Shown: one piece after another, positions 40,077 to 53,564 of the stretch | Layout of the letters: every line of letters starts with the position of its first letter | Numbering within the stretch: the stretch's first letter is position 1 | Assembly (NCBI RefSeq): GCF_000744835.1 | Contig: NZ_JQMS01000001.1 | Coordinates: 1,364,001-1,428,000 of the forward strand | Direction of reading: 5' to 3' | Source of the DNA: Flavobacterium sp. 83 | GTDB lineage: Bacteria > Bacteroidota > Bacteroidia > Flavobacteriales > Flavobacteriaceae | DNA length: 64,000 nucleotides | The notes under the pieces: model-generated | Database searches by the model: none | Told to the model about the DNA's origin: nothing | Seen by the model: only the letters and a program-made list of their open reading frames with translations | Position numbers and translations under genes: made by a program

Positions 40077-41267
40077 CTACTTGATTAAGCTTGTGCCACC
40101 AACGGTTGCCCAAGCACCAGCAGTTAATGAAGCACCGGTTGCAGTTGTACTTGGTACAAAATTTCCAACTGGGAAATTAACTACAATACTTGAAGTTGCT
40201 CCCACAGGTATAATTTGTGAAGTTGAAGAGATAGTCACATTAGTTAATTTTAATTTTGAACCATTAACTTGATTTGTGTTTGTAGTAGCATCTTGAATTT
40301 TTACCGCAGCACCTTGGTAAACAGTTGTCCCTTCAGTATAGTCTCCGTATCCTGAGATAATGATATTGCTATAATCTCCATTACCTTCTTTTTTGAATTG
40401 GAAAGCATCAACTTGAATATCACCAGCAGTTTCTGGTGTACATCCTGCTTCTCTTTTTAAAGTGATGTTAGTAACTTTTGGAAAGAAGGCATTATTGTTG
40501 TTAGAACATTCAATTTCCATTCCGAAGTTTCCTTTACCCGTTTGGTAAGCATACCAGTTAGAGTTGTTTTGACCTTGCCATCCATCTTGCCAGTCAAAAG
40601 CATCATCGTAGTTACCGTAAGAGATAGCATTTGTCATGCTTACAGTTCCTCCAAAAAATTCATATCCATCATCAGCACCTTTGTAAGAAACTAAGTGGTC
40701 TAATGTTGTTCCTGAACCTACTGAATAAAATGTGAATCCATTATTTTCTTTTGTTCCATCAGCTAATTTTGCTCCAGCATATTCAACTCTTGCATAGGTT
40801 AATGAACCTCCGTTGTGAGTAGCATTTGTTCCTCCATAAGGTAATGCATTCCCATCTTCAGAAGTAGATGTAGTTACACCACCAATTGCTTTTATAGGTG
40901 CATCACCATAGATGATGATTCCTCCCCAAGAACCTGGAGTTGCAGATGCTTCAGTAAATACTACTGGTTTGTCAGCTGTACCGTTAATGTTCAATTTTCC
41001 TCCGTTTAAAACAACTAATGCGTTGTCTCCGGTAGTTTTATTAGCTGTAATTGTAGAACCTGCTTCGAAAGTTACTGTTACTCCTGAAGCAACTTTAACA
41101 ATACCTTTTAAAGTATAATTTCCGTATGCAAAAGTTTTATTTGCAGTTATTGTACCTGTAATTTCGCCTGTTGCCGCTGGTGTAACAGGAGTTGGACTGT
41201 CACTACTTGAGCAAGAATTTAGAAATAACCCTGTAGCAAGTGCTAAAGCAAAAAATTTAGTTTTCAT
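40077..41267 (-). CDS. Secreted right-handed beta-helix-like lipoprotein
   Basis: A 396-residue lipoprotein: signal peptide ending LNSC (Cys19) followed by SSSDSP, a typical sorting context for surface export. The remainder is Gly/Thr/Asn-rich with repeated short beta strands (GIVKVASGVTVTFEAGS, ALVVLNGGKLNINGT, GWGGIIIYG-like), the look of a parallel beta-helix. Later segments ADDGYEFFGGTVSMTNAISYGNYDDAFDWQDG are characteristic of a family often mis-annotated as a transporter. Enzymatic activity is not evident. It follows the TonB receptor in orientation but has its own predicted Pho-type promoter at 41303-41336, so phosphate-regulated expression is inferred. Confidence 0.8.
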   Translation of the reverse strand: MKTKFFALALATGLFLNSCSSSDSPTPVTPAATGEITGTITANKTFAYGNYTLKGIVKVASGVTVTFEAGSTITANKTTGDNALVVLNGGKLNINGTADKPVVFTEASATPGSWGGIIIYGDAPIKAIGGVTTSTSEDGNALPYGGTNATHNGGSLTYARVEYAGAKLADGTKENNGFTFYSVGSGTTLDHLVSYKGADDGYEFFGGTVSMTNAISYGNYDDAFDWQDGWQGQNNSNWYAYQTGKGNFGMEIECSNNNNAFFPKVTNITLKREAGCTPETAGDIQVDAFQFKKEGNGDYSNIIISGYGDYTEGTTVYQGAAVKIQDATTNTNQVNGSKLKLTNVTISSTSQIIPVGATSSIVVNFPVGNFVPSTTATGASLTAGAWATVGGTSLIK

Positions 41268-41302: not shown

Positions 41303-41336
41303 CAAAATTATGGGATAACTTTACAAAATGTGTTAG
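41303..41336 (-). promoter_or_regulatory. Predicted Pho box and -7 element of the lipoprotein gene
   Basis: On the minus strand CTAACA (41336-41331), 5 bp, TGTAAA (41325-41320), 13 bp, TTTG (41306-41303). The last eight bases before the transcript read TAATTTTG, matching TAnnTTTG. The spacing equals that at the TonB receptor and porin promoters. The second hexamer is the weakest of the three sites. Confidence 0.55.
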
Positions 41337-41420
41337 CTGAACATTACAATAATGTTACTAAAAAAACACTTAAATGTGAAGCGAATGTTAAGGTCATAAC
41401 ATAAGTTTTAAGTATTAAAA

Positions 41421-41442
41421 AAGCCCTAAATGAATAGGGCCT
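41421..41442 (-). terminator. Terminator of the TonB receptor gene
   Basis: AAGCCCTA pairs with TAGGGCCT across a 6-nt loop (arms about 41421-41428 and 41435-41442), with a T-run on the minus strand, between the receptor and the lipoprotein gene. It makes these separate transcripts. Confidence 0.8.
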
Positions 41443-41466
41443 TTTCAGTGTTTTCTATTGTGTGTG

Positions 41467-44268
41467 TTAAAAAGTGTATCCTAAATTAATTGAGAACCCT
41501 CTTCCTTTTTTATAACTATTCGTTATGTTTGATTGCTCAACAATAGATGAAGTTCCGTTATTTCCTTGTTCGGATTTTCGCATTGGATCAAGTAGATTAT
41601 CAGCGCTGAATTTTAAATCAAAATGATCTGATAATTTGCTGCTCCAAATAAAATCTAATTGTTGAACAGGTAGTTCATAAATATGGTCTAATCCTCCTGT
41701 TCCTACTGCATAAATTCTTTTTCCAAATACTGAATAAACTAACGAAATCGTATTGCTCCAAGATTCACTTAAATCAAATTGGTATTTTAAATCAGAGTTG
41801 ATTAACCATTTTGAAGCTCCCTGAAGTTCTCTGTTTTTAAAAGTTTCAATTGATGTTGTTACGTTTCCGTCACTGTCAGTTGTGGTTGGTTTTACAGCTA
41901 CTTTTGTATGCATTAATGAAGTGTTGAATCCAAAAGAGAAATCAGATAAACTTTTGTTGATTCTTGCAAAGTCAAAGATAAACTCGATTTCAGCTCCGTA
42001 TAAAACGGCATTATCAGAATTCAAATAAGTGGTAATAGTTGAATTTGCGGCATTAGAGATGAATGTTCTTTCGATAGGCTGATCAATTTTTTTACCGAAT
42101 AATCCAAGTACAAAAACTTCTTTTGATGTTGGGAATAATTCATATTTTAAATCAACATTATAATTGTTGCTGTTTTCTAAAAATGGATTTCCTTTTGTTG
42201 AGGTTCCGTCAGCATTGATGTACTCGATAGGATATGATTCCATAACAACAGGTCTTGTGTATGTTTTTCCAGTAGCAAAACGTAGATTCGAATTTTCATT
42301 TAAGCCATATTTCACATTTAAAGCAGGTAAAACATACAAGTTGTCGTATTTTAAAGTTTTGAATGGATCTGAGAATGAACCTTGTGTTCTGTATTTTGTT
42401 TCCCTCATTGTACTTTCTAAACGAATTCCTCCGTTTACTTCCCATTTTTCTCCAAACTTGTAAAGTAAGTTAGCATAACCCGCATTAGCAGTTTCTTTTA
42501 ATTTTGCCTGATAAGTTGCATTAGAACTTTCTCTGAAACTAATAGCATTTGACCCAAGATAACTATTTAATTGAGTGTCCAATGAATTTAATGGTGCTGT
42601 AAAACTGTTCGGAGCACTATTGTTTATCGGGGTAATAAAACGATAAGTTGAATTCATATTAGACATGTTTCCATTATATCCAGCGGTGAAAATGTTATTT
42701 TTTTCGTTTTTACCAAATTTCAAACTGTATTCTCCTAAACCAGAAAAGTAAGAATCACCAGAAATATCCAAATACTGTTTGATGAAATTGTTTCCTGCAA
42801 CAGAAACTAATATATCGTCTGTTCCTGATCTTGTTCCTGAAAAGAACTTTCTGTCCGGTTGCGCATATTTAGTGATTGCATACGAAACGGCTGCTTTTAT
42901 ATTTTGAGTTTTGTCTTCATTCAATGCATATTCTCCCAATAACTGGTTGTTCAAATAATTAGATTCGTCTAATTGATTCGTTCTTATTAAAGTGTTATTG
43001 TTGCTTGAGTTTGAATCAGCTACACCAAATTGATCTTTAACCAAATTTTCAGTAGTTCTAATGAAAAGGGTGTTGTACGAAAGTTTTAATCTATCAGTGG
43101 TGTAATTTAATCCAACTAAAGAAGACAATGATGTTTTATAGCGGTATTCTGTATTGTCAAAATCATTTCTGTAGGTAAAGCCAGAAGGGTTATTTGTAAA
43201 TGTTCTTTCCACTCCGTTTCTAATAGAATAATTATTATCAAAATTGATGGAAAGTAAGTAAGAAAAAGTCTTGTCATCTTTCAGGTTGAATTTCTCTGAA
43301 TGAAGAAAACCTACACTAGTGTTTAAAGGGCTGTTTATTTTTGAAACATCAAATCCACTTTTAAAAGATTTTAAAGATTGATCAGGGGTAAGTGTATAAC
43401 TTGAAGGAGTATTTCCTAAAAGTTTAGGAATTTTTCTGTCGTTTCCAGTCAAGCCAAATAATCCTTTGGTAGAATTAGCATCTTTGGAAATTAAGAAGTC
43501 TTCTAAATTGTTATTCATAGTGTAGCCTAATCCAATATTTAATTTGGTTACGCTTTTTGAACCTTTAGAGGTTTGGATGTTAAAAGTACCTCCAGCAAAA
43601 TCCCCATAAATGTTTGGGTTAAATGTTTTGTATACTTCTATTACACCTACAATGTCAGTAGAAAATAAGTCTAAGGGAATGATTTTTTTGAAAGGATTGT
43701 TAGTTGGAGCAGCAAGGTCATTTATCAATAAGTTATTGTATCGGTCTTCTAATCCACGAACAAATAAACCTCTTGAGCCTACTTTAGTAATTCCTGTTAT
43801 TTTGGTAAGCCCTTCTTCTACATCACTAACTCCTTTACGAGCCATTTCTTGCGCACCAATACTTTGCTTTATTACAACAGCTTTCTTTTGGTCAAGTAAT
43901 AAAACCGTTTCTTTTTCTCTGCTTGTCGTGTTCTTTATTACTACATCTTCCAGTTTGTAGCTTCCTGAACCAATCGCTTGATTTATCGTTGATGTTTCAT
44001 TGGCAACTACTGTTACCGGAACATCTATAGATTCATAACCTACAAAGCTGAATTGAACTATATAGGTTCCAGGTGCAACAGCGATAGTGTATTTACCATC
44101 AATATCAGTATTTGCTCCTACATTAGTTCCTTTTATAAGTACGTTTGCAAAAGGTAATGATTGATTGTTAGCGTCTTTATCAGTAAGGATCCCTGAAATG
44201 GTACCTTTATTCTGTGAAAAAGAAAAACTTGTGATTAATAATGCTATAAACAATATTTTAAATTTCAT
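41467..44268 (-). CDS. TonB-dependent receptor of the CarboxypepD_reg-plug-barrel type
   Basis: A 933-residue outer-membrane transporter. A signal peptide (residues 1-18) is followed by a carboxypeptidase-regulatory-like domain (about 22-110: GTISGILTDKDANNQSLPFANV), a TonB plug (about 125-235: TKITGITKVGSRGLFVRGLEDRYNN) and a beta-barrel ending INLGYTF. There is no SusD partner beside it; instead a surface lipoprotein gene follows. The ligand is not readable from sequence. It lies divergently from the PhoB-like regulator and its promoter carries the same box as the phosphate porin, so uptake of a phosphorus compound is the best inference. Iron or peptide uptake remains possible. Confidence 0.92.
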   Translation of the reverse strand: MKFKILFIALLITSFSFSQNKGTISGILTDKDANNQSLPFANVLIKGTNVGANTDIDGKYTIAVAPGTYIVQFSFVGYESIDVPVTVVANETSTINQAIGSGSYKLEDVVIKNTTSREKETVLLLDQKKAVVIKQSIGAQEMARKGVSDVEEGLTKITGITKVGSRGLFVRGLEDRYNNLLINDLAAPTNNPFKKIIPLDLFSTDIVGVIEVYKTFNPNIYGDFAGGTFNIQTSKGSKSVTKLNIGLGYTMNNNLEDFLISKDANSTKGLFGLTGNDRKIPKLLGNTPSSYTLTPDQSLKSFKSGFDVSKINSPLNTSVGFLHSEKFNLKDDKTFSYLLSINFDNNYSIRNGVERTFTNNPSGFTYRNDFDNTEYRYKTSLSSLVGLNYTTDRLKLSYNTLFIRTTENLVKDQFGVADSNSSNNNTLIRTNQLDESNYLNNQLLGEYALNEDKTQNIKAAVSYAITKYAQPDRKFFSGTRSGTDDILVSVAGNNFIKQYLDISGDSYFSGLGEYSLKFGKNEKNNIFTAGYNGNMSNMNSTYRFITPINNSAPNSFTAPLNSLDTQLNSYLGSNAISFRESSNATYQAKLKETANAGYANLLYKFGEKWEVNGGIRLESTMRETKYRTQGSFSDPFKTLKYDNLYVLPALNVKYGLNENSNLRFATGKTYTRPVVMESYPIEYINADGTSTKGNPFLENSNNYNVDLKYELFPTSKEVFVLGLFGKKIDQPIERTFISNAANSTITTYLNSDNAVLYGAEIEFIFDFARINKSLSDFSFGFNTSLMHTKVAVKPTTTDSDGNVTTSIETFKNRELQGASKWLINSDLKYQFDLSESWSNTISLVYSVFGKRIYAVGTGGLDHIYELPVQQLDFIWSSKLSDHFDLKFSADNLLDPMRKSEQGNNGTSSIVEQSNITNSYKKGRGFSINLGYTF

Positions 44269-44291
44269 TTTTTATCTGTTTTATTTTTATG

Positions 44292-44325
44292 CAAAGTAAT
44301 GGCCGCTTTGTAAATTAAATGTTAG
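44292..44325 (-). promoter_or_regulatory. Predicted Pho box and -7 element of the TonB receptor
   Basis: On the minus strand CTAACA (44325-44320), 5 bp, TTTACA (44314-44309), 13 bp, TTTG (44295-44292). The receptor ATG follows 23 bp later. The hexamers are 11 bp apart, one helical turn, as expected for a PhoB/OmpR-type dimer. Confidence 0.65.
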
Positions 44326-44493
44326 TTAGTTATTACCATTTAGTTTCTTGAATATTAATAAATCGTTAACATATTAAATTACGGTTAATGTGATTTTTAA
44401 ACGATTCTTTTATTGTTATATTTACAATCGGAATTGAATATCACTGAGTATTTCAGGAGTAAATTCCTTTAGAATAATATAATTTTTCTATTT

Positions 44494-45177
44494 ATGAAAA
44501 AAAGAAATACAAAGATTTTACTGGTAGATGACGAGCCGGATATTTTAGAAATAGTGGGGTATAATCTTACCCAGGAAGGGTATCAGATATTTACGGCGGC
44601 CAACGGAAAAGAAGCTATTATAAAGGCCAAAAAAGAGTTGCCTGATCTTATTATAATGGATGTAATGATGCCGGAAATGGATGGAATGGAAGCTTGTGAA
44701 AATATTAGAAAAATACCGGAATTGAATAATGTAATCATCACTTTTCTTACAGCAAGAAGCGAAGATTATTCTCAAGTTGCAGGCTTTGATGCCGGCGCTG
44801 ATGATTATATTACAAAACCAATCAAGCCAAAATTATTAGTAAGTAAAGTTAAAGCATTGCTAAGACGCTTGAAAGAGCAGGAGCAAAATAGTGAAACCCT
44901 TAACGTAGGTGGAATTGAAATCAATCGGGAAGAATATAAAATTAGAAAAGATAATGTAGAGATTGCTTTGCCACGAAAAGAATTTGAATTATTTTATTTG
45001 TTAGCTTCAAAGCCTGGAAAAGTATTTAAACGTGATGAGATTTTAGATAAGGTCTGGGGTAACGAAGTCGTTGTTGGGGGGAGAACCATAGATGTTCATA
45101 TTAGAAAATTACGAGAAAAAATTGGTGAAGATTTATTCAAAACAATAAAAGGAGTAGGGTATAAGTTTGAAGTATAA
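44494..45177 (+). CDS. PhoB-like response regulator (OmpR family)
   Basis: A 227-residue DNA-binding response regulator. The receiver domain has LLVDDEPDILEIV (acidic pair near residues 10-11), phospho-acceptor Asp in LIIMDVMMPEMDG near residue 54 and the conserved lysine in DYITKPIKPK near 106. A winged-helix domain of the OmpR/PhoB type follows (about 130-227), with GGRTIDVHIRKLREKIG and KGVGYKFE typical of PhoB. The kinase gene follows 60 bp downstream. Position between a predicted phosphate-regulated receptor and the pst cluster supports a phosphate role. The upstream region has a degenerate box-like pair (TTAATG and TTTAAA, 44385-44401), which could allow autoregulation. Confidence 0.9.
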   Translation: MKKRNTKILLVDDEPDILEIVGYNLTQEGYQIFTAANGKEAIIKAKKELPDLIIMDVMMPEMDGMEACENIRKIPELNNVIITFLTARSEDYSQVAGFDAGADDYITKPIKPKLLVSKVKALLRRLKEQEQNSETLNVGGIEINREEYKIRKDNVEIALPRKEFELFYLLASKPGKVFKRDEILDKVWGNEVVVGGRTIDVHIRKLREKIGEDLFKTIKGVGYKFEV

Positions 45178-45246
45178 TTAAACTCACTTTTTTATTAGAA
45201 TAACAAAATGCAAATCAAATCGCTGTAATGGTGAGATGTGAAATCA

Positions 45247-46371
45247 ATGAAAATAAATTTTAAAAAAACCTACAAGTTTGCTATAAAGTCAGCCTTATTC
45301 ATTAGCCTTTTTGCTACTGGATTTGTTATTTTAATGGTGTTATTATTTTTTGATTCCAAAATTAAAAATATACTGCTTTTTGGAATTGTTTGTCTTTTGA
45401 TTATATATATATTCTCTTTTTTGGTTTTGCAATATCGTGTAGAACGATTCATTTATAGACGTGTAAAAAAAATATACGATGACGTTTCGCTATTAGAATC
45501 CAGTACTTTTATAAATCAACCCATTACAACTGATATGGAAACTTTGACACGAGAAGTTAAGAAGTTTGCCACTGATAAAAAATTAGAAATTGAAATGCTG
45601 CAAATTCGTGAAGAATACCGAAGAGAGTTTCTTGGGAATGTTTCACACGAGCTAAAAACGCCTTTGTTTACTGTTCAAGGTTATATTTCTACTTTGCTGG
45701 ATGGAGCAATGGATGATAAAAACATTAGGAAAAAATATTTAAAGCGTGCAGAGAAAGGTGTAGAGCGATTAATTTATATCGTGGAGGATTTAGATATGAT
45801 TACTAAATTAGAATCAGGGGATTTGAATCTAGAGTTTTCAGAATTTGATATTGTGGAATTAATACAAAATGTTTTCGATTTATTGGAAATGAAAGCTGAT
45901 AAAAAGAAAATTACCTTGTCTTTTGAAAATTATCATATACAGCCCATTTTTGTGCAAGGAGACAAAGATAAGATACAGCAAGTTGTTGAGAATCTCATTG
46001 TGAACTCCATAAAATATGGTCGAGAAGGAGGTTTTACGGAAGTAGCCGTCATTAATTTGACTAAAAAAAAGGTTTTGGTTCGAATAACTGATAATGGAGA
46101 AGGAATTGAAAAGCAAAATATTTCAAGACTTTTTGAGCGTTTTTACAGGGTAGATAAAAGCGGTTCTCGTTCTGAAGGAGGGTCAGGTTTAGGGTTAGCA
46201 ATTGTAAAGCACATTATCGAAGCCCATAAAGAGAAAATATATGTGGAAAGTGAATTTGGAATTGGTTCTGAGTTTTCCTTTACGATTGAGAAGGCCGCAT
46301 TAAGAAAAGTGGAATTGGATGCTGAGCAAATTTATAGTAAAAGTCTTAAAATCAATAAATTAAATAAATAA
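45247..46371 (+). CDS. PhoR-like sensor histidine kinase
   Basis: A 374-residue inner-membrane histidine kinase. Two helices near residues 10-32 and 40-62 are separated by only a short loop, so there is no periplasmic sensor domain, as in PhoR, which senses through the Pst-PhoU complex. The dimerisation helix contains REFLGNVSHELKTPLFTV with the phospho-accepting His near 136, and the ATPase domain has the G-boxes DNGEGIEKQN and GGSGLGLAIVKHIIEAH. I prefer ATG 45247 over GTG 45238, which differ by three residues. It follows the PhoB-like regulator and precedes the porin and pst genes. Confidence 0.9.
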   Translation: MKINFKKTYKFAIKSALFISLFATGFVILMVLLFFDSKIKNILLFGIVCLLIIYIFSFLVLQYRVERFIYRRVKKIYDDVSLLESSTFINQPITTDMETLTREVKKFATDKKLEIEMLQIREEYRREFLGNVSHELKTPLFTVQGYISTLLDGAMDDKNIRKKYLKRAEKGVERLIYIVEDLDMITKLESGDLNLEFSEFDIVELIQNVFDLLEMKADKKKITLSFENYHIQPIFVQGDKDKIQQVVENLIVNSIKYGREGGFTEVAVINLTKKKVLVRITDNGEGIEKQNISRLFERFYRVDKSGSRSEGGSGLGLAIVKHIIEAHKEKIYVESEFGIGSEFSFTIEKAALRKVELDAEQIYSKSLKINKLNK

Positions 46372-46431
46372 TAGGTCTAATAGAGAGTATAAGAAAATCC
46401 TATAAAAAAGATTGAAAACATTAAGGAAACA

Positions 46432-46492
46432 CTAACTTATCATCAACATAATATTGTGTTAACATTAGCTTAACATAACTGATTCATCTTTG
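46432..46492 (+). promoter_or_regulatory. Predicted tandem Pho boxes and -7 element of the porin-pst unit
   Basis: TTAACA (46459-46464), 5 bp, TTAACA (46470-46475), 13 bp, TTTG (46489-46492). A second, weaker pair lies upstream: CTAACT (46432-46437), 5 bp, TCAACA (46443-46448). The -7 element reads CATCTTTG, one base from TAnnTTTG; the porin ATG follows 25 bp later. This is the best copy of the motif in the window. Confidence 0.7.
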
Positions 46493-46517: not shown

Positions 46518-47873
46518 ATGAAAAAAATTTTATTTGCAGTTTTAGTTATGACTTCAGTTTTGGCTAATGCACAAGATATTAAGAGTGATACTATTAAAGC
46601 AGTGCCTGTTGATTCTATAGAAACAACAAGTATTGATTCAGTTAAGACGGTAAGTATAGAATCTTTGAAAGAATCTCTTGATGAGCATACTATGAAATTT
46701 AGTGGTCTTGATGAAAGACTTGCGGCTATGGATAGTGATCTTGGTAAATTAACTAAGATTAAATTTTCAGGTTACTTACAAGCACAATACGAAATGTATA
46801 ATTATCAAGATAATATTGGGCCTGGGCCATCTACTACAGCGGTGCCGATAACAAATACTTTTTTTATCAGAAGAGCTCGTGTTAAATTGACTTATGAGCC
46901 AGTTACTGGTGCGGTATTTGTAATTCAACCGGATTATGCTTTTGATAAAGTTACTTTAAGAGATGCTTATGTTCAGTTAAATGATAAATGGTTGCAAACA
47001 TTTAAATTGTTTTTAGGGCAATTCAACAGAACAAGTTACGAAGTAGAGTTTTCTTCTCGTTCAAGAGAATTATTAGAAAGAAGTAGAATGTCTGGAATTT
47101 TGTATCCGCAAGAAAGAGACTTAGGAGCAAAAATCGAAATGGATTTAGAGACTAAATATGAGATTCCATTTAAATTTCAGTTAGCCGTTTTTAACGGAAA
47201 TTATGGTGAAGGTTCTTTGACAAATAATCTTAGAGACGTCGATAACAAGAAAGATGTTATGGTAAGAGGTGTTTACGCTTTCAAGTTTCCTTCTAAAGGA
47301 TTGGGAATTGATATAGGTGCACATACTTATTTAGGTAACACGGCTGTTTTACAAGCCGGAACTTTCAGTGACGCTAATAATAATAATTTCACAGCTAAAG
47401 TAGGGGACAGTTTCCAAAAAAGATGGTTTGGTGGTGAAATGAGAGTTTATTATGATTTTCTTGGTGGAATGTCTCTTAAAGGAGAATATATTTCGGGAAC
47501 CATATCAGGGGAAAAGTCAACTACAGCATTACCTGTAGCGAATAGCAATCCTAGTTTTAATTTTAATGGGATAAGAGATTTTTCAGGGTATTACGCGACT
47601 TTGGTTAAAAACATTGGAAAGAGTAATCAAATCGCAGTACGATATGATAGTTGGGATCCAAACAGACATTTAGCAGGAAATACAGTGACTATTAAAGAAG
47701 ATTTAAAATATAATAACTGGTCATTCTCATGGCAATATTTTTATGATGATAATGTAAAAATTGTTGCAGGATATAGTTTGCCAATCAATGAAAAAAGTAC
47801 CACAGTAGGGGGTGATTATATAAAAGACAAATTAGATAACACGTTTACAATTAGAATTCAAGCAGGTTTTTAA
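46518..47873 (+). CDS. Phosphate-selective porin (OprO/OprP family)
   Basis: A 451-residue outer-membrane channel. A signal peptide (residues 1-18, ending LANA) is followed by a Ser/Val-rich stretch, a short coiled-coil segment (about 48-78: EHTMKFSGLDERLAAMD) and a beta-barrel of the OprP type starting at FSGYLQAQYEMYNYQD, with TFFIRRARVKLTYEPVTG and KDKLDNTFTIRIQAGF at the end. OprP/OprO channels select phosphate or polyphosphate. It stands at the head of the pst cluster with the strongest predicted Pho box in front, so it probably admits phosphate to the periplasm for PstS. Confidence 0.9.
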   Translation: MKKILFAVLVMTSVLANAQDIKSDTIKAVPVDSIETTSIDSVKTVSIESLKESLDEHTMKFSGLDERLAAMDSDLGKLTKIKFSGYLQAQYEMYNYQDNIGPGPSTTAVPITNTFFIRRARVKLTYEPVTGAVFVIQPDYAFDKVTLRDAYVQLNDKWLQTFKLFLGQFNRTSYEVEFSSRSRELLERSRMSGILYPQERDLGAKIEMDLETKYEIPFKFQLAVFNGNYGEGSLTNNLRDVDNKKDVMVRGVYAFKFPSKGLGIDIGAHTYLGNTAVLQAGTFSDANNNNFTAKVGDSFQKRWFGGEMRVYYDFLGGMSLKGEYISGTISGEKSTTALPVANSNPSFNFNGIRDFSGYYATLVKNIGKSNQIAVRYDSWDPNRHLAGNTVTIKEDLKYNNWSFSWQYFYDDNVKIVAGYSLPINEKSTTVGGDYIKDKLDNTFTIRIQAGF

Positions 47874-47913: not shown

Positions 47914-48747
47914 ATGAAAACAACAAAAATTAAATTAGCGGCTATTTTATTAGTTGTTATGGCAGTAGGATTTTCTTTTACTTCATTAAATAAAATAACA
48001 GTTAAAGGTTCTGATACCATGGTTATTTTGTCCCAAAAATGGGCTGAAGTGTACATGCAAAAAAATCCAGGAACAACAATTCAGGTTACTGGTGGTGGGT
48101 CAGGAGTAGGTCTTGCAGCTTTAATAAACGGATCAACTGATATTGCAAATTCAAGCCGTCCTATCAAAGCTACTGAAGTTGAAAAATTAAAAGCAAGATA
48201 TAATACTTTAGGTGTTGAGATTCCTTGTGCAAAAGACGGATTGTCTGTTTATTTAAACAAAGCAAATGGTGTTTCAGAACTTACAGTAAAACAAATTGGT
48301 CAAATCTTTGCTGGGAAAATTACAAACTGGAAAGAAGTTGGTGGTATAGATGCAAATATTAGATTGTATGGTAGAGAAAGTAGCTCAGGGACTTTTGCTT
48401 TTTTTAAAGATAATGTAGTCAAAACAGATTATTCTCCATCTTGTCAAACATTACCAGGAACAGCAGCAATTGTAAATGCAGTTAAGAAAGATAAATTAGG
48501 AATTGGATATGGTGGTGCTGCTTATGCAGAAGGTGTGAAAGATTGTAAAGTAAAAAAAGACGATAAAAGCCCTGGTATTGCTCCAACTGCAGAGACAATA
48601 AAAAATAAAACATATCCTATTACAAGATATTTATACATGTATTTAAAATCAAGACCAACAGGTGAAACAAAAGCTTTTGTTGATTGGATCTTAAGTCCAG
48701 AAGGTCAAAAAATCATTACTTCAGTAGGATACTTTCCTGTAAAATAA
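47914..48747 (+). CDS. pstS: Phosphate-binding protein PstS, soluble copy
   Basis: A 277-residue periplasmic phosphate-binding protein. The signal peptide (residues about 1-24) has no lipobox cysteine, so the mature protein is probably soluble. Phosphate-pocket segments are KGSDTMVILSQKW near 31-43, TGGGSGVG near 61-68, NSSRPI near 81 and GRESSSGTFAFF near 147-158. It lies 40 bp after the porin and is followed by a strong terminator (48758-48792), so a porin-pstS transcript is expected. Its paralogue at 48916 is similar across the whole mature part. Confidence 0.95.
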   Translation: MKTTKIKLAAILLVVMAVGFSFTSLNKITVKGSDTMVILSQKWAEVYMQKNPGTTIQVTGGGSGVGLAALINGSTDIANSSRPIKATEVEKLKARYNTLGVEIPCAKDGLSVYLNKANGVSELTVKQIGQIFAGKITNWKEVGGIDANIRLYGRESSSGTFAFFKDNVVKTDYSPSCQTLPGTAAIVNAVKKDKLGIGYGGAAYAEGVKDCKVKKDDKSPGIAPTAETIKNKTYPITRYLYMYLKSRPTGETKAFVDWILSPEGQKIITSVGYFPVK

Positions 48748-48757
48748 TTATGCTTTT

Positions 48758-48797
48758 AGTATCCCTTATTGGTTTTTCCAATAGGGGATACTTTTTG
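48758..48797 (+). terminator. Terminator between the two pstS genes
   Basis: AGTATCCCTTATTGG (48758-48772) pairs with CCAATAGGGGATACT (48778-48792, one G-U pair), then TTTTTG. It would make the soluble pstS the end of the porin transcript, or allow partial read-through. Confidence 0.85.
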
Positions 48798-48915
48798 TAT
48801 TTAAGTAATATTTGAATTCTTAAATAGATTAATATAAGTTGCCCATTTAAAGGTGATTAAAAGTTAAGGATAAGATAGAAAAGAATATAGGTTTAATATT
48901 TACCGTATTAATATA

Positions 48916-49755
48916 ATGATTATGAAAACAAGTAAGTTAAAAATTGCAGTAATCTTATTAGTTATAATGACAGTAGGATGTAGTTCTAATGAATCGAAAA
49001 AGATTACCGTAAAAGGTTCTGATACTATGGTGATTCTATCTCAAAAGTGGGCAGAAGCATTTATGAAAAAAAATCCTAAAACCACTATTCAGGTGACAGG
49101 AGGAGGTTCAGGTGTAGGTATTGCGGCACTAATCAACGGTTCAACGGATATTGCAAATGCAAGTCGTCCTATGAAACCTTCTGAAATAGATAAATTAAAA
49201 GAAAAATATCAAACAAGTGGGTTAGAAATCGCTTGTGCCAAAGATGGTTTATCCGTTTTTTTAAACAAAGAAAATCCAGTTGCAGAACTTACTTTAGAAC
49301 AATTAAGTAGTATTTTTTCGGGAAAAATAACTAATTGGAAAGAAGTAGGTGGTGATGATGAAAAAATTCAATTGTATGGTAGAGAAAGCAGTTCAGGTAC
49401 TTTTGAGTTTTTTAAAGAACATGTAGTAAAAACCGACTTTTCAAAATCATGTCAGACTTTGCCTGGTACAGCTGCAATTGTAAATGCAGTTAAAAAAGAT
49501 AAATATAGTATTGGATACGGCGGTGCTGCTTATGCAGAAGGTGTAAAAGATTGTAAAATAAAAGTAGATGCTAAAAGTGAAGGGGTTTTGCCGACTGCAG
49601 AGACTATTAAAGATAAAACCTATCCCATTTCAAGATATTTATATATGTACTTGAAATCACAGCCAACTGGAGAAGCCAAAGCTTTTATTGATTGGATTTT
49701 AAGTCAGGAAGGACAAAAAATGATTGAAGAAGTTGGGTATTATCCTTTAAAATAA
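48916..49755 (+). CDS. pstS: Phosphate-binding protein PstS, lipoprotein copy
   Basis: A 279-residue paralogue of the preceding PstS. The signal peptide ends MTVGC with a lipobox cysteine near residue 22, so this copy is membrane-anchored while the first is soluble. Pocket segments match: KGSDTMVILSQKW, TGGGSGVG, NASRPM and GRESSSGTFEFF. It starts the pstS-pstC-pstA-pstB-phoU order. A terminator upstream separates it from the first copy and no clear Pho box is visible before it, so it may have a different, perhaps basal, promoter or depend on read-through. Confidence 0.93.
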   Translation: MIMKTSKLKIAVILLVIMTVGCSSNESKKITVKGSDTMVILSQKWAEAFMKKNPKTTIQVTGGGSGVGIAALINGSTDIANASRPMKPSEIDKLKEKYQTSGLEIACAKDGLSVFLNKENPVAELTLEQLSSIFSGKITNWKEVGGDDEKIQLYGRESSSGTFEFFKEHVVKTDFSKSCQTLPGTAAIVNAVKKDKYSIGYGGAAYAEGVKDCKIKVDAKSEGVLPTAETIKDKTYPISRYLYMYLKSQPTGEAKAFIDWILSQEGQKMIEEVGYYPLK

Positions 49756-49759
49756 TACG

Positions 49760-49767
49760 TATTTTTG
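49760..49767 (+). promoter_or_regulatory. Possible internal -7 element before pstC
   Basis: TATTTTTG fits TAnnTTTG just after the pstS stop. A related TTTTTGCAT sequence is repeated about 18 bp downstream. It could give separate transcription of pstCAB-phoU. It may be a chance match in AT-rich DNA. Confidence 0.3.
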
Positions 49768-49832
49768 CATTGTTCATCGTTTTTGCATGAGCTTTTTTTA
49801 ACAAATAACTTATGAATTCTTAAATAAAATAA

Positions 49833-51050
49833 ATGAATTCCGAATTTCCAAATAAACAAAATTTCACTAAAGAAAGTTTAAAAAAACAATTTAGACTTTC
49901 TGAGTTTCTGGCTGAAAAAATCATCTCATCGGTTGCTTTTTTATCAATAGCTATAATTATCCTTATTTTTGTTTTTGTTTTTAAAGAGTCCCTACCTATT
50001 TTTAATTTTGGTACACTCGAGAAAGCTAAAACAGAAGTTGAGGTTACCTCCAGTTCAGTAGCAAAACCTAAATCTTATGGGGCTGAACCTACAGATGAAT
50101 TGAAACCTGAGACATACGGTTCAGAAGCGGTTGCTAATGAAGACTTAAAGCCTGAAACCTATGGTTCAGAACCTGTCACAAATGAGGGTCTGCAACCGGA
50201 GACTTATGGCGATGTAAAAGCTGAAACTACTATTGCTGACTCTTCAGATGATATGAAAGAAGTTGTTGGGAGTAATAATGAAGGTGCTGATAAAACATGG
50301 AGTACCTTTTTTACTACTGAATGGGTACCTGTATCGGAACATCCCAGATTTGGGTTGTTAGGTTTGCTTATTGGAACTTTGAAAGTGACCATAATAGCAA
50401 TGTTAATCGCAGGACCTATTGCAGTATTAGCAGCAGTTTATACATCTTGTTTCGCATCAAAAAGAACCAAAGAGATTATTAAACCTATCATTGAGATGCT
50501 AGCAGCATTTCCATCAGTAGTTATTGGGTTTTTTGCATTGATGGTTTTAGCTACATTCTTTCAGGATATATTTGGATATGAATCAAGATTAAATGCTTTT
50601 ATTGGTGGTGTTGCTATGGCTTTGGCTGCAATTCCAATCATTTATACAATATCAGAAGATGCACTTTCAGCAATACCTAAAACATTTACTGAGGCAAGTT
50701 TAGCACTAGGTGCTAGTAAGTGGCAAACTGCTTTTTTTGTAATATTACCAGCAGCTACGCCTGGGATTTTTGCTGCTTTACTTTTAGGAGTTGGACGCGT
50801 TTTTGGAGAAACTATGATTGCACTTATGGCAACCGGAAATGCAGCACTATTATCAGCAAATCCTTTTGAGAGTGTGCGTACTTTTGCAGCTACAATTGGT
50901 TCCGAAATGGCGGAAACGGTATTTGGTGAAACGCATTACAGTGTTTTGTTTTTCATAGGATCATTGCTTTTCATTTTTTCATTTGCATTAAATGCCGTTG
51001 CAGAGTTTTATGTTAAAGGTAAATTAATCAAAAAATTTCAAGGTAAATAA
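49833..51050 (+). CDS. pstC: Phosphate ABC transporter permease PstC with a repeat-bearing periplasmic insert
   Basis: Inner-membrane permease of the Pst high-affinity phosphate transporter. The 405-residue product has TM1 at residues about 30-50, then an unusual insert of about 120 residues, then the normal permease core from about residue 168 (HPRFGLLGLLIGTLKVT) with the ABC-binding EAA-like segment EASLALGASKWQTAFFVILPAATPGI. The insert holds repeats of the form KPETYGSE (residues 78-127). E. coli PstC is about 319 residues, so the difference is mainly this insert, which should face the periplasm. It overlaps no neighbour: pstA starts 3 bp after the stop. Confidence 0.95.
   Translation: MNSEFPNKQNFTKESLKKQFRLSEFLAEKIISSVAFLSIAIIILIFVFVFKESLPIFNFGTLEKAKTEVEVTSSSVAKPKSYGAEPTDELKPETYGSEAVANEDLKPETYGSEPVTNEGLQPETYGDVKAETTIADSSDDMKEVVGSNNEGADKTWSTFFTTEWVPVSEHPRFGLLGLLIGTLKVTIIAMLIAGPIAVLAAVYTSCFASKRTKEIIKPIIEMLAAFPSVVIGFFALMVLATFFQDIFGYESRLNAFIGGVAMALAAIPIIYTISEDALSAIPKTFTEASLALGASKWQTAFFVILPAATPGIFAALLLGVGRVFGETMIALMATGNAALLSANPFESVRTFAATIGSEMAETVFGETHYSVLFFIGSLLFIFSFALNAVAEFYVKGKLIKKFQGK
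50064..50213 (+). repeat. Tandem 45-bp coding repeats in pstC
   Basis: Encodes KPKSYGAEPTDEL, KPETYGSEAVANEDL, KPETYGSEPVTNEGL and the partial QPETYGD. The two full 15-residue units differ at only three protein positions but use different codons, so selection rather than very recent duplication is likely. Confidence 0.85.
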
Positions 51051-51053
51051 ATC

Positions 51054-51998
51054 ATGAATACAAGCATTAACGAAACAGAAGACCAGTTTTTTTTAAATAA
51101 AAAAAAGGTTTTAGATTTAAAAGGAAAATTTATTGTTGGAATAACTCAAATTGCAGTTCTGTTAATTATAGCTGTTCTTTTTGTAATATTAGGGATTATT
51201 ATTTATGAAGGGCGTGAAAAGTTTTCATGGGAGTTCATTAGTTCATTTCCTACGAATGGAATGACAGAAGGAGGGATATTTCCTGCTTTAATCGGTACGT
51301 TTATATTGGTTATTGTTATGTCAATAGCAGCCGTTCCTTTTGGCACTATTACGGCTATTTATTTAACAGAATATGCTAAAGAAAATTCAAAAATTGCAGC
51401 CGCAGTTCGATTTTCTATTCGAACATTAGCAGTTGTGCCGTCAATTATTTTTGGTTTATTTGGACTTGGATTTTTTATTCAATTTGTAGGAGGAGGAATT
51501 GATAAAACATTTAATGGCGGACAATTGCATTGGGGACAACCTAATATTATTTGGGCAAGTCTTACTATGGCATTACTTACTTTACCTGTAATTATTGTTT
51601 CAGTTGAAGAAGCCTTGAAAACAATTCCCCGCGAACTGCGCGAAGCAAGTTTAGCTTTAGGTGCAACAAAGTGGCAAACCATTAAAAATGTAGTGCTTCC
51701 TGGATCTATTTCTGGGATTATGACAGGGACAATTCTTGCTGTTAGTAGAGGTGCTGGTGAAGTTGCTCCAATTTTGTTTACAGGAGCAGCATATTATTTA
51801 GCTACTTTACCAGCTTCTTTGAGCGATCAATTTATGAATTTGGGATATCATATTTATATCATGTCAACTCAATCTTCAGATGTTGAAAAAACAATGCCAA
51901 TACAATTTGCTACAACATTAGTATTGTTAATTCTTACTTTATCCTTAAACTTAGTGGCAGTAATTATTAGATCCAGAATTAGAAGAAAAGCAAAATAA
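51054..51998 (+). CDS. pstA: Phosphate ABC transporter permease PstA
   Basis: Second membrane subunit of the Pst transporter, 314 residues with about six helices. The first helix lies at about 25-55, and the permease core has the family segment EALKTIPRELREASLALGATKWQTIKNVVLPGSISGI (the EAA loop that docks PstB) near residues 185-222. No insert like that of PstC is present. It starts 3 bp after pstC and is followed 48 bp later by pstB; the two permeases are co-transcribed. Confidence 0.97.
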   Translation: MNTSINETEDQFFLNKKKVLDLKGKFIVGITQIAVLLIIAVLFVILGIIIYEGREKFSWEFISSFPTNGMTEGGIFPALIGTFILVIVMSIAAVPFGTITAIYLTEYAKENSKIAAAVRFSIRTLAVVPSIIFGLFGLGFFIQFVGGGIDKTFNGGQLHWGQPNIIWASLTMALLTLPVIIVSVEEALKTIPRELREASLALGATKWQTIKNVVLPGSISGIMTGTILAVSRGAGEVAPILFTGAAYYLATLPASLSDQFMNLGYHIYIMSTQSSDVEKTMPIQFATTLVLLILTLSLNLVAVIIRSRIRRKAK

Positions 51999-52046
51999 TT
52001 TTGAAATCTACCTAATAAATTATATTTTAGACATAATAAAAAAGAC

Positions 52047-52805
52047 ATGAAAGACATAAAAATACAAGTAAATGATTTGTCATTGTACTATGGAGAAAAA
52101 AAAGCGTTAAAGGAGATTTCAATGCAAATTCCAGCTAATAAAGTAACGGCTTTAATCGGTCCTTCTGGTTGTGGTAAGTCTACTTTTCTTAGATGTATCA
52201 ATAGAATGAATGACCTTATTCCAGATGTTACAATAACAGGAAATATGCTTGTTGAAGGCGTTGATATTTATAATAAAGATGTTGATGTTGTTAATATCAG
52301 AAAAAAAATTGGAATGGTTTTTCAAAAATCAAACCCATTTCCAAAATCTATTTATGAGAATATTGCTTATGGTCCAAAAATTAATGGGATAAAAGATAAA
52401 ACTCAATTGGACGAAATCGTAGAAACTTCATTAAGACAAGCTGCTATTTGGGAAGAAGTGAAAGATAGATTGGGGGATTCCGCATTAGGGCTTTCAGGAG
52501 GGCAACAACAACGACTTTGTATTGCAAGAACTTTGGCAGTAAGTCCAGACATTATTCTTATGGATGAGCCTGCAAGTGCATTAGATCCAATATCTACGTC
52601 AAAAATAGAAGAGTTAGTTCATGAATTGAAAGAACAGTACACTATAATTATTGTAACCCATAATATGCAGCAAGCAGCAAGAACGAGTGATTATACCGCG
52701 TTCTTTTACATGGGTGAATTGATCGAAATTGGTAAAACTAATGCTATATTTACTAAACCAGAGCAAAAACAAACGGAAGATTATATCACAGGAAGATTTG
52801 GTTAA
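52047..52805 (+). CDS. pstB: Phosphate ABC transporter ATP-binding protein PstB
   Basis: Cytoplasmic ATPase of the Pst complex, 252 residues. The Walker A motif GPSGCGKST lies near residues 35-43, the signature LSGGQQQR near 150, Walker [14 protein letters not shown] near 170-182, and the switch histidine in VTHN near 205. All motifs are intact, so it should power phosphate import through PstCA. It follows pstA and precedes phoU by 81 bp. Confidence 0.98.
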
Positions 52806-52886
52806 AATCAAAAAAAATAAAAGTAGGCATTTAGTCTAGTTTTAGTTTTGTGAATTTTATAAATCTTTAATTTTAAACATAAAAAT

Positions 52887-53564
52887 ATGGCATCACACTT
52901 TGAAATAGAATTAGAAAAACTTAAAAATATTATCCAAAAAATAGGTGTTTTAGCTGAGAGTCAAGTAGGAGAATCAATGAACGCTTTGCTTTCAGGACCT
53001 TTTGTTGAAGCTAAAGAAGTAAAAAAGACAGAAGATAAGATTGATAAATTAGATATAAAAATTGATGAAATTTGCCAAAGCATTTTTGCTTTGCAACAGC
53101 CAGTCGCTTCTGATTTGCGTTTTATTATGTCTGCTATGCAAATTAGTAATGAGATTGAAAGAATAGGAGATTTGGCGATAAGCATTATAAAAAAATCTAA
53201 GAATATTAAAGACAAACATGATTTAATTGTTAAATTTAATATTGCCGATGTATCCAGACATGTTGAGGTTATTACTGTAAAAACGAATGAATGTTTCTTG
53301 ACTCGTAATGAAAGTACGATTGGGGAGATTTTCGTTTTGAACAATACCATAAAAAATGAATGTGATGACGCAATACATGATATAATCAATGAAATGAAGT
53401 CAAATTCTAAGACGGTAGTGTCAGGAACAAATCTTGTGATTGTTTTAAAACATTTAGAACGTATTTCTGAACATTGTACTAATATTGCGGAGTATGTTTA
53501 TTTTATGATTAATGCCAAAATAATCAAACACGAAAAATTTGGTGAGAAAAAATCAGAGGATTAA
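52887..53564 (+). CDS. phoU: Phosphate-signalling protein PhoU
   Basis: Cytoplasmic 225-residue helical protein with two three-helix PhoU repeats (about 15-105 and 115-215). Each has the metal-binding-type sequence, seen as ISNEIERIGDLAISI and KHLERISEHCTNIAEYV. PhoU links the Pst transporter to PhoR and represses the Pho response when phosphate is plentiful. It ends the pst cluster at a strong terminator. Together with the PhoB/PhoR-like pair it completes the sensing circuit. Confidence 0.96.
   Translation: MASHFEIELEKLKNIIQKIGVLAESQVGESMNALLSGPFVEAKEVKKTEDKIDKLDIKIDEICQSIFALQQPVASDLRFIMSAMQISNEIERIGDLAISIIKKSKNIKDKHDLIVKFNIADVSRHVEVITVKTNECFLTRNESTIGEIFVLNNTIKNECDDAIHDIINEMKSNSKTVVSGTNLVIVLKHLERISEHCTNIAEYVYFMINAKIIKHEKFGEKKSED

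Follow-up and report, generated by a model that had tools for sequence, protein, structure and literature searches.

Which protein reads the paired TTAACA-like hexamers that stand before three genes of the phoB region of Flavobacterium sp. 83, and from where does it act on the promoter? The stretch of DNA analyzed here (the window) comprises 64,000 nucleotides of contig NZ_JQMS01000001.1. According to a preliminary description of its sequence, a porin gene, a TonB-dependent receptor gene and a β-helix lipoprotein gene each have upstream of them two such hexamers with 5 bp between them, followed by exactly 13 bp (N13) and the TTTG of the −7 element; the arrangement was taken for the flavobacterial Pho box, the target of the PhoB-like regulator encoded at 44494. 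To our knowledge, the distance between operator and core promoter has been established in few cases in Bacteroidota, and the promoters of this phylum follow their own rules. Our results indicate that the elements are very probably the Pho boxes of Bacteroidota, i.e. operators of the PhoB-like regulator that lie at fixed distances from the −7 element and activate transcription under phosphate starvation. The direct support is sequence conservation, spacing and gene association; low-phosphate induction and PhoP binding have been published for relatives.

All three strings were found in the window. The porin promoter reads TTAACA-TTAGC-TTAACA-N13-TTTG (46459–46492, plus strand), the TonB receptor promoter CTAACA-TTTAA-TTTACA-N13-TTTG (44325–44292, minus strand), and the lipoprotein promoter CTAACA-CATTT-TGTAAA-N13-TTTG (41336–41303, minus strand). 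When no mismatch was allowed, the pattern YTWACA-N5-TTWACA-N13-TTTG had exactly two matches in the organism's own genome of 3.79 Mb, one at the porin and one at the TonB receptor promoter, and these two strings are far beyond chance. The lipoprotein string deviates from the strict pattern by two mismatches and, taken alone, is not distinguishable from chance, because matches with up to two mismatches are no commoner in the genome (80) than in the backward control (99). With up to three mismatches, the window contained 19 matches and 20.1 were expected. Relaxed patterns were rejected as predictors of the own-genome regulon, being no commoner than their backward controls (80 versus 99, 29 versus 41, and 5 versus 14), and the five one-mismatch matches of the own genome, judged by the surrounding bases of all five and the reading frames of loci L003, L004, L005 and L007, included no phosphate promoter.

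The spacing was analyzed in 81 Flavobacterium genomes and in 392 genomes of the phylum; as these genomes are related, the matches in either count are not independent events. When the distance to TTTGC could vary between 8 and 18 bp, 13 bp was found in 25 of the 44 matches in the genus and no other value occurred more than five times, while the backward control gave 26 matches over the 11 spacings, approximately 0.03 per genome per spacing. When the spacer between the hexamers was left free instead (0–12 bp, 13 spacings), 5 bp accounted for 25 of 67 matches, the next most frequent value had 8 matches, and the control gave about 50 matches over all spacings. Across the phylum, N13 was present in 38 of 111 matches (9 within the genus and 29 outside it), and the other values were represented by 3 to 12 matches each. 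The pattern YTAACA-N5-YTAACA, with the distance to TTTGC free between 14 and 34 bp in the genus, gave 23 bp in 22 and 24 bp in 20 of its 51 matches, with no other value above three and only 18 matches over all 21 values in the backward control. Thus, the hexamers are direct repeats with an 11-bp period, as had been proposed from the sequence; the 13-bp distance holds as the favored spacing and fails as a single rule, since 42 of the 51 matches of the last pattern belong to a 23/24-bp register. As in a PHO box, the position relative to the core promoter is fixed. The low-stringency counts in the genome and window given above could be taken to mean that the boxes arise by chance in AT-rich DNA; the spacing spikes and the association with particular genes leave a negligible probability for this.

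The genes behind the boxes were identified with simple longest-ATG frames as gene calls. The 25 N13 matches in the genus precede 10 TonB receptor genes, 7 porin genes, 6 DUF47-Pit operons and one gene for a 513-amino-acid protein without a Pfam family; one match has no gene behind it. All 23 that lie outside the own genome are intergenic by the frame calls, and in 22 an ATG follows 17–31 bp past TTTGC. Downstream of these 23, nine TonB receptors and six porins resembled the window proteins in BLASTP, and six genes encoded DUF47 proteins (PF01865); at the one DUF47 locus that was read on (L161), the next gene encodes a Pit-type phosphate transporter (PF01384). The 19 genus matches at other spacings gave another picture: eight lie within coding sequence, six had no downstream frame in the stretch examined, and none of the 13 downstream frames matched a window protein in BLASTP (the window set holds no DUF47 protein). 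Outside the genus, six of the 29 N13 sites stand before DUF47 genes, nine before TonB receptor-like genes and one before a porin gene; the last of these (L352) encodes a phosphate-selective porin (PF07396), and a receptor site faces the opposite way. The 42 N23/24 matches in the genus are found just upstream of DUF47 genes (26), upstream of receptor-like genes, some of them Oar-like (11), and before other genes or none (5). Pfam was run on seven of the nine receptor-like genes behind N13 sites outside the genus and on six of the 11 behind N23/24 sites, the others being assigned by length and N-terminus. The boxes are thus found before phosphate genes at unlinked loci (TonB receptor, porin, DUF47-Pit and pstS), as is characteristic of a PHO box.

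To examine the half-sites themselves, each promoter was anchored on a TTTG that was chosen independently of the half-sites, 14–62 bp before the ATG; this could be done for 34 of 39 receptor, 25 of 36 lipoprotein (FII), all seven porin and 65 of 70 pit promoters. Identical upstream regions were entered once in the position profiles. The results showed that the half-sites form an 11-bp ladder that extends from −19 to −85 from TTTG, with receptor promoters carrying them at −19, −30, −41, −63 and −74. The ladder positions accounted for 117 of the 137 receptor half-sites, 46 of 73 in FII promoters, 19 of 24 in porin promoters and 53 of 132 in pit promoters, where 54 more were one base off. Upstream of other genes, 58 of 366 half-sites were on the ladder and 8% were expected by position alone, a twofold excess that fits the pstS and porin genes remaining in that set. 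It might be argued that the half-sites are an extended core promoter, a variant of the −33 element read by σA, since they lie about where, from general knowledge, a −33 element is expected. This is very improbable, as the same ladder continues to −74 and −85, few places in the genome fit the strict form, and receptor promoters carry half-sites at six times the density of the regions before other genes (4.03 versus 0.65 each).

In the window, the proximal Pho box of the porin promoter (46459..46475, plus strand) has TTAACA at −30 and again at −19, counted from the initial T of TTTG. A weaker third half-site, ATAATA, is located at −41 (46448..46453, plus strand); six of eight anchored porin promoters have T[AT]ACA at this position, of which TAATA is the weaker version of the window. 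The −7 element, CATCTTTG (46485..46492, plus strand), differs from the σA consensus TAnnTTTG in the first base pair; this consensus forms a box at −12 to −5 in F. psychrophilum. The proximal Pho box of the TonB receptor promoter (44309..44325, minus strand) consists of CTAACA at −30 and TTTACA at −19, with GTAATA at −41 (44331..44336, minus strand) and TTAATA and TTAACG at −63 and −74 of the same ladder (44353..44369, minus strand), upstream of the −7 element TTACTTTG (44292..44299, minus strand).

The DUF47 genes were informative with regard to the second register. Among 70 of their upstream regions (70 of the 75 matches were used), 21 had a proximal box, 37 a distal box, seven neither, and five no anchor; as these promoters are split between the two forms, orthologous operons use either step. 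The boxes fall into two registers, proximal (N13) and distal (N23/24), one helical turn apart. In the own genome, distal boxes precede an Oar-like receptor gene (L392) and a moxR-like gene (L391), both among the five matches of a loose pattern whose frequency does not exceed that of its control. At 30 moxR loci, the best among the 58 genomes with a match and all from the genus, TAAC occupied −30 at 25 loci and −41 likewise at 25; at four loci it was shifted by one base, to −31 and −42.

The lipoprotein promoter belongs to the distal form. Its assignment as an N13 box was rejected, since TGTAAA (41320..41325, minus strand), the presumed second half-site that would lie at −19, is not conserved in the aligned relatives and is probably no half-site; the alignment instead showed a common TTAAC approximately 24 bp, not 13 bp, before TTTG, with conserved half-sites at −30, −41 and −52. 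The CTAACA of this promoter is real by the same alignment. In 26 anchored FII promoters, where TTTG was picked without regard to half-sites, TAAC occupied −30 in 19 promoters and −52 in 14, and one promoter had T[AT]ACA at −19. The distal Pho box of the window's FII promoter (41331..41358, minus strand) thus comprises CTAACA (−30), GTAATG (−41) and GTAACA (−52). An upstream pair (41375..41391, minus strand), TTCACA at −74 and TTAACA at −85, continues the ladder, and the −7 element is TAATTTTG (41303..41310, minus strand). Consequently, the statement that exactly 13 bp separate box and TTTG in three promoters is correct for the porin and the TonB receptor; for the lipoprotein, the spacer is 24 bp, i.e. 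13 + 11.

The box was also recovered without being specified. An expectation-maximization search of 40 TonB receptor upstream regions yielded two strong elements of nearly equal likelihood, one close to phoB and the other identical to the box plus its −7 element. A matrix was then built from 21 N13 sites, leaving out L171, where no gene follows, and L173, where the flank is too short. Against 1153 other upstream regions, the area under the receiver operating curve (AUC) was 0.93 for 39 receptor promoters, 0.997 for seven porin promoters, 0.77 for FII and 0.63 for phoB; because receptor and porin sites of the genus were among those used for training, these values are not independent as far as Flavobacterium is concerned, and 17 receptors of other genera alone gave 0.85. 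The top-scoring genes of the 'other' set included pstS, a DUF47-like gene and genes of 431 amino acids that occupy the place of the porin, together with some genes that have no link to phosphate.

The second element found by the search is a conserved phoB-proximal element (44350..44389, plus strand), which also stands before phoB in relatives and is a probable autoregulatory operator of phoB; the −63 and −74 half-sites of the receptor promoter are shared with it. Its half-sites read away from phoB. Pairs reading in this direction were found at 16 of 39 phoB genes with a divergent TonB receptor and at 13 of 39 without one (meaning that none was detected at the locus by BLASTP, where some loci end at contig ends), as compared with 8 of 1135 other genes. 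Pairs reading toward phoB were found at 1 of 39 and 0 of 39 phoB genes, respectively, as compared with 25 of 1135 other genes. A good part of the 80 phoB loci did not contain the full element. This pattern suggests that phoB is autoregulated through an inverted operator of unusual orientation, which agrees with the value of 3.06 for phoB at low phosphate in F. johnsoniae. A box-like site in the direction of phoB (44355, three mismatches) was set aside as a separate candidate and re-read as part of this element. The possible −7 element of phoB is TATATTTA (44417..44424, plus strand); by eye, TATnTTTAC recurs roughly 20–40 bp downstream of the phoB-proximal element in relatives.

The presumed binder of the boxes, the regulator encoded at 44494..45177 (plus strand), contains the Pfam receiver domain PF00072 and the Trans_reg_C domain PF00486, as expected of an OmpR-family response regulator. 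The gene behind it (45238..46371, plus strand) encodes a PhoR-like sensor kinase, which matched the NCBIfam PhoR models under their cut-offs. We propose that phosphate starvation would cause this kinase to phosphorylate the regulator, which would then bind the TAACA half-sites head-to-tail, always on the same side of the helix at intervals of 11 bp, with a set distance to the σA −7 element TAnnTTTG downstream. At proximal promoters (TonB receptor, porin and many pit operons) the nearest half-site would be at −19 from TTTG (N13), and at distal promoters (lipoprotein FII, the pit operons of one clade, moxR and Oar-like receptors) at −29/−30 (N23/24), one turn further up. From either step the bound regulator would contact RNA polymerase and stimulate transcription, both the contact and its direction being part of the proposal. 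The identification as the flavobacterial Pho box made in the preliminary description is strongly supported by the spacing histograms, the unlinked phosphate genes, the de novo motif and the PhoP motif of Riemerella.

Several observations weigh against this interpretation. The regulator scored below the cut-offs of the two NCBIfam PhoB models (219.4 against 296.2 for TIGR02154 and 208.2 against 270 for NF053854), and it is therefore named PhoB-like. Together with the distal form before moxR and before a disulphide-isomerase-like gene, and with the fact that many response regulators bind 11-bp direct repeats, these scores could mean that the boxes are real operators of another OmpR-family regulator, not the one at 44494. 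This is quite improbable, since the boxes are concentrated near phoBR, pst and pit genes and an element made of the same half-sites precedes phoB itself. Other points concern the genes. Of the 29 N13 sites outside the genus, 13 show no obvious connection to phosphate, have no gene behind them or fall inside a frame, and five of the 42 N23/24 sites in the genus stand before genes without a phosphate or receptor link or before no gene. The organism's own DUF47-pit promoter (L257) lacks a box. No box of either register was present at seven strong PhoX matches, in three of which the gene start is doubtful or missing, even though F. johnsoniae strongly induces PhoX (PMC8115612). Among the weaker PhoX-family matches, one of seven (L189) had an imperfect box at its own start. 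The 30 phytase loci likewise showed no box; the promoter there may be located ahead of another gene.

The published data on relatives point in both directions. At low phosphate, the F. johnsoniae table gives, in its FC column, 8.02 for the TonB receptor, 9.91 for FII and 3.06 for phoB (PMC8115612). The porin OprP was not induced in that study (−1.3, adjusted p 0.25; PMC8115612), although boxes do occur at the porins of related species. In Riemerella anatipestifer, the most conserved bases of the PhoP motif obtained by DNA affinity purification sequencing (DAP-seq) are TTTAACA, and electrophoretic mobility shift assays (EMSA) showed PhoP binding upstream of phoPR, moxR, a TonB receptor gene and others (PMC9603813). 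However, the PhoP peaks in that organism correspond to 764 genes, far beyond a phosphate regulon (PMC9603813), and pstS was raised 8-fold in its phoPR mutant, the reverse of what simple activation would give. The link to Riemerella assumes that its regulator and moxR are orthologous to the Flavobacterium genes.

The Riemerella results also bear on the direction of regulation. The regulator at 44494 might own the repeats and yet repress at some promoters, such as pit and moxR, which would be compatible with activation elsewhere. Of the 50 differential genes bound by PhoP in Riemerella, the phoP mutant showed 34 with increased and 16 with decreased expression, and the rise of pstS in the double mutant fits the same idea. 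Against it speak the constant helical phase in which the half-sites directly precede the −7 element, the arrangement one would expect for an activator, and the increase of the receptor, FII and phoB at low phosphate in F. johnsoniae (PMC8115612); partial repression is unlikely. Activation from boxes of the PhoB-like regulator thus remains the interpretation that we prefer. We also lean slightly toward a broader proposal: that Bacteroidota widely share a Pho box built as an 11-bp ladder and phased to the unusual −7 element TAnnTTTG, that the activator works from two steps one turn apart, that pit operons switch step between clades, and that the regulon extends past phosphate uptake to include moxR and orphan TonB receptors. 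With a fixed −7 distance rule, phosphate regulons could be predicted in much of the phylum; such a rule would also account for the strong induction of the TonB receptor and FII lipoprotein in F. johnsoniae and would give the PhoP data from Riemerella a defined operator as counterpart. The layout also lends itself to simple promoter mutants for studying how the polymerase of Bacteroidota is contacted by an activator placed at either of two positions.

The other genes of the locus were assigned as follows. The first gene behind the porin-type box (46518..47873, plus strand) is called a porin by position alone, being equivalent to Fjoh_0542 (OprP); no Pfam family scored above its cut-off, and that includes the phosphate-selective porin O/P family (PF07396). 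It is followed on the same strand by pstS1, pstS2, pstC, pstA, pstB and phoU (47914..53564), presumably read from the porin promoter; pstS1, pstC, pstA, pstB and phoU passed the NCBIfam cut-offs. The full pst gene set of the species, whose DUF47-pit locus is L257, thus sits behind one of the two exact boxes of its genome. Between pstS1 and pstS2, a terminator-like hairpin of 15 pairs followed by a T run (48758–48792) may reduce expression of pstS2-pstC-pstA-pstB-phoU relative to porin-pstS1. On the minus strand are the TonB-dependent receptor (41467..44268; equivalent in position to Fjoh_0545) and the β-helix lipoprotein (40077..41267; equivalent in position to Fjoh_0546, FII), for which no Pfam family was above cut-off. 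The gene order is that of Fjoh_0542 to Fjoh_0546, and among 80 phoB loci a window-like TonB receptor divergent from phoB was detected in 39 and the lipoprotein in 36.

Some sites in other genomes were recorded separately. A distal-type box lies upstream of a PHO4/Pit-family phosphate transporter of 764–799 amino acids at L075, L081, L084 and L117 (PF01384 was tested for L075 and L117). In two Flavobacterium genomes (L311 and L314), distal-type repeats precede the disulphide-isomerase-like gene (PF06491, tested for L311), for which we know of no phosphate link. A spacer-12 box stands before an FkbM methyltransferase-like gene (PF05050, L348) in three genomes of a neighboring family in the order (L348–L350), and in three genomes of one family (L374–L376) one and the same N13 string lies 4 bp ahead of a gene for 141–142 amino acids without an evident phosphate link.

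The preliminary description likened the hexamers to the Bacillus PhoP box; that this box consists of TTAACA-like repeats was not confirmed by our literature searches. These searches, whose coverage excludes most subscription journals and supplements, also retrieved no paper describing a Flavobacterium box or its −7 distance. The 11-bp PHO box itself is well known, and the Flavobacterium layout is apparently undescribed in the literature searched. One paper, of which the accessible part gives no details, predicted Pho boxes in plcP clusters of marine bacteria. The F. johnsoniae regulon (PMC8115612) has the same order of porin, phoR, phoB, TonB receptor and FII lipoprotein; that paper deals with expression only, and the words promoter, motif and Pho box are absent from its main text. 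In Bacteroides fragilis, likewise a member of the Bacteroidota, EMSA showed binding of PhoB to the pstC promoter, and pstC expression at low phosphate depended on PhoB; the word motif and a box sequence are absent from the accessible text (PMC3547664). The Riemerella paper likened its PhoP motif to ArcA, and the part of it available contains no repeat ladder, −7 distance or phosphate regulon rule (PMC9603813). The PHO box of PhoB in E. coli and of PhoP in Bacillus and others is composed of head-to-tail 11-bp repeat units (PMC4415409), and the boxes described here are like it in their 11-bp head-to-tail units, in their location beside phosphate genes and in lying just upstream of the core promoter. 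Unlike in the E. coli PHO box, the half-site is TAACA/TTAACA and not CTGTCAT (PMC4415409), and unlike the classical PHO box, the Flavobacterium form is set to the Bacteroidota −7 element TAnnTTTG, in two registers one turn apart.

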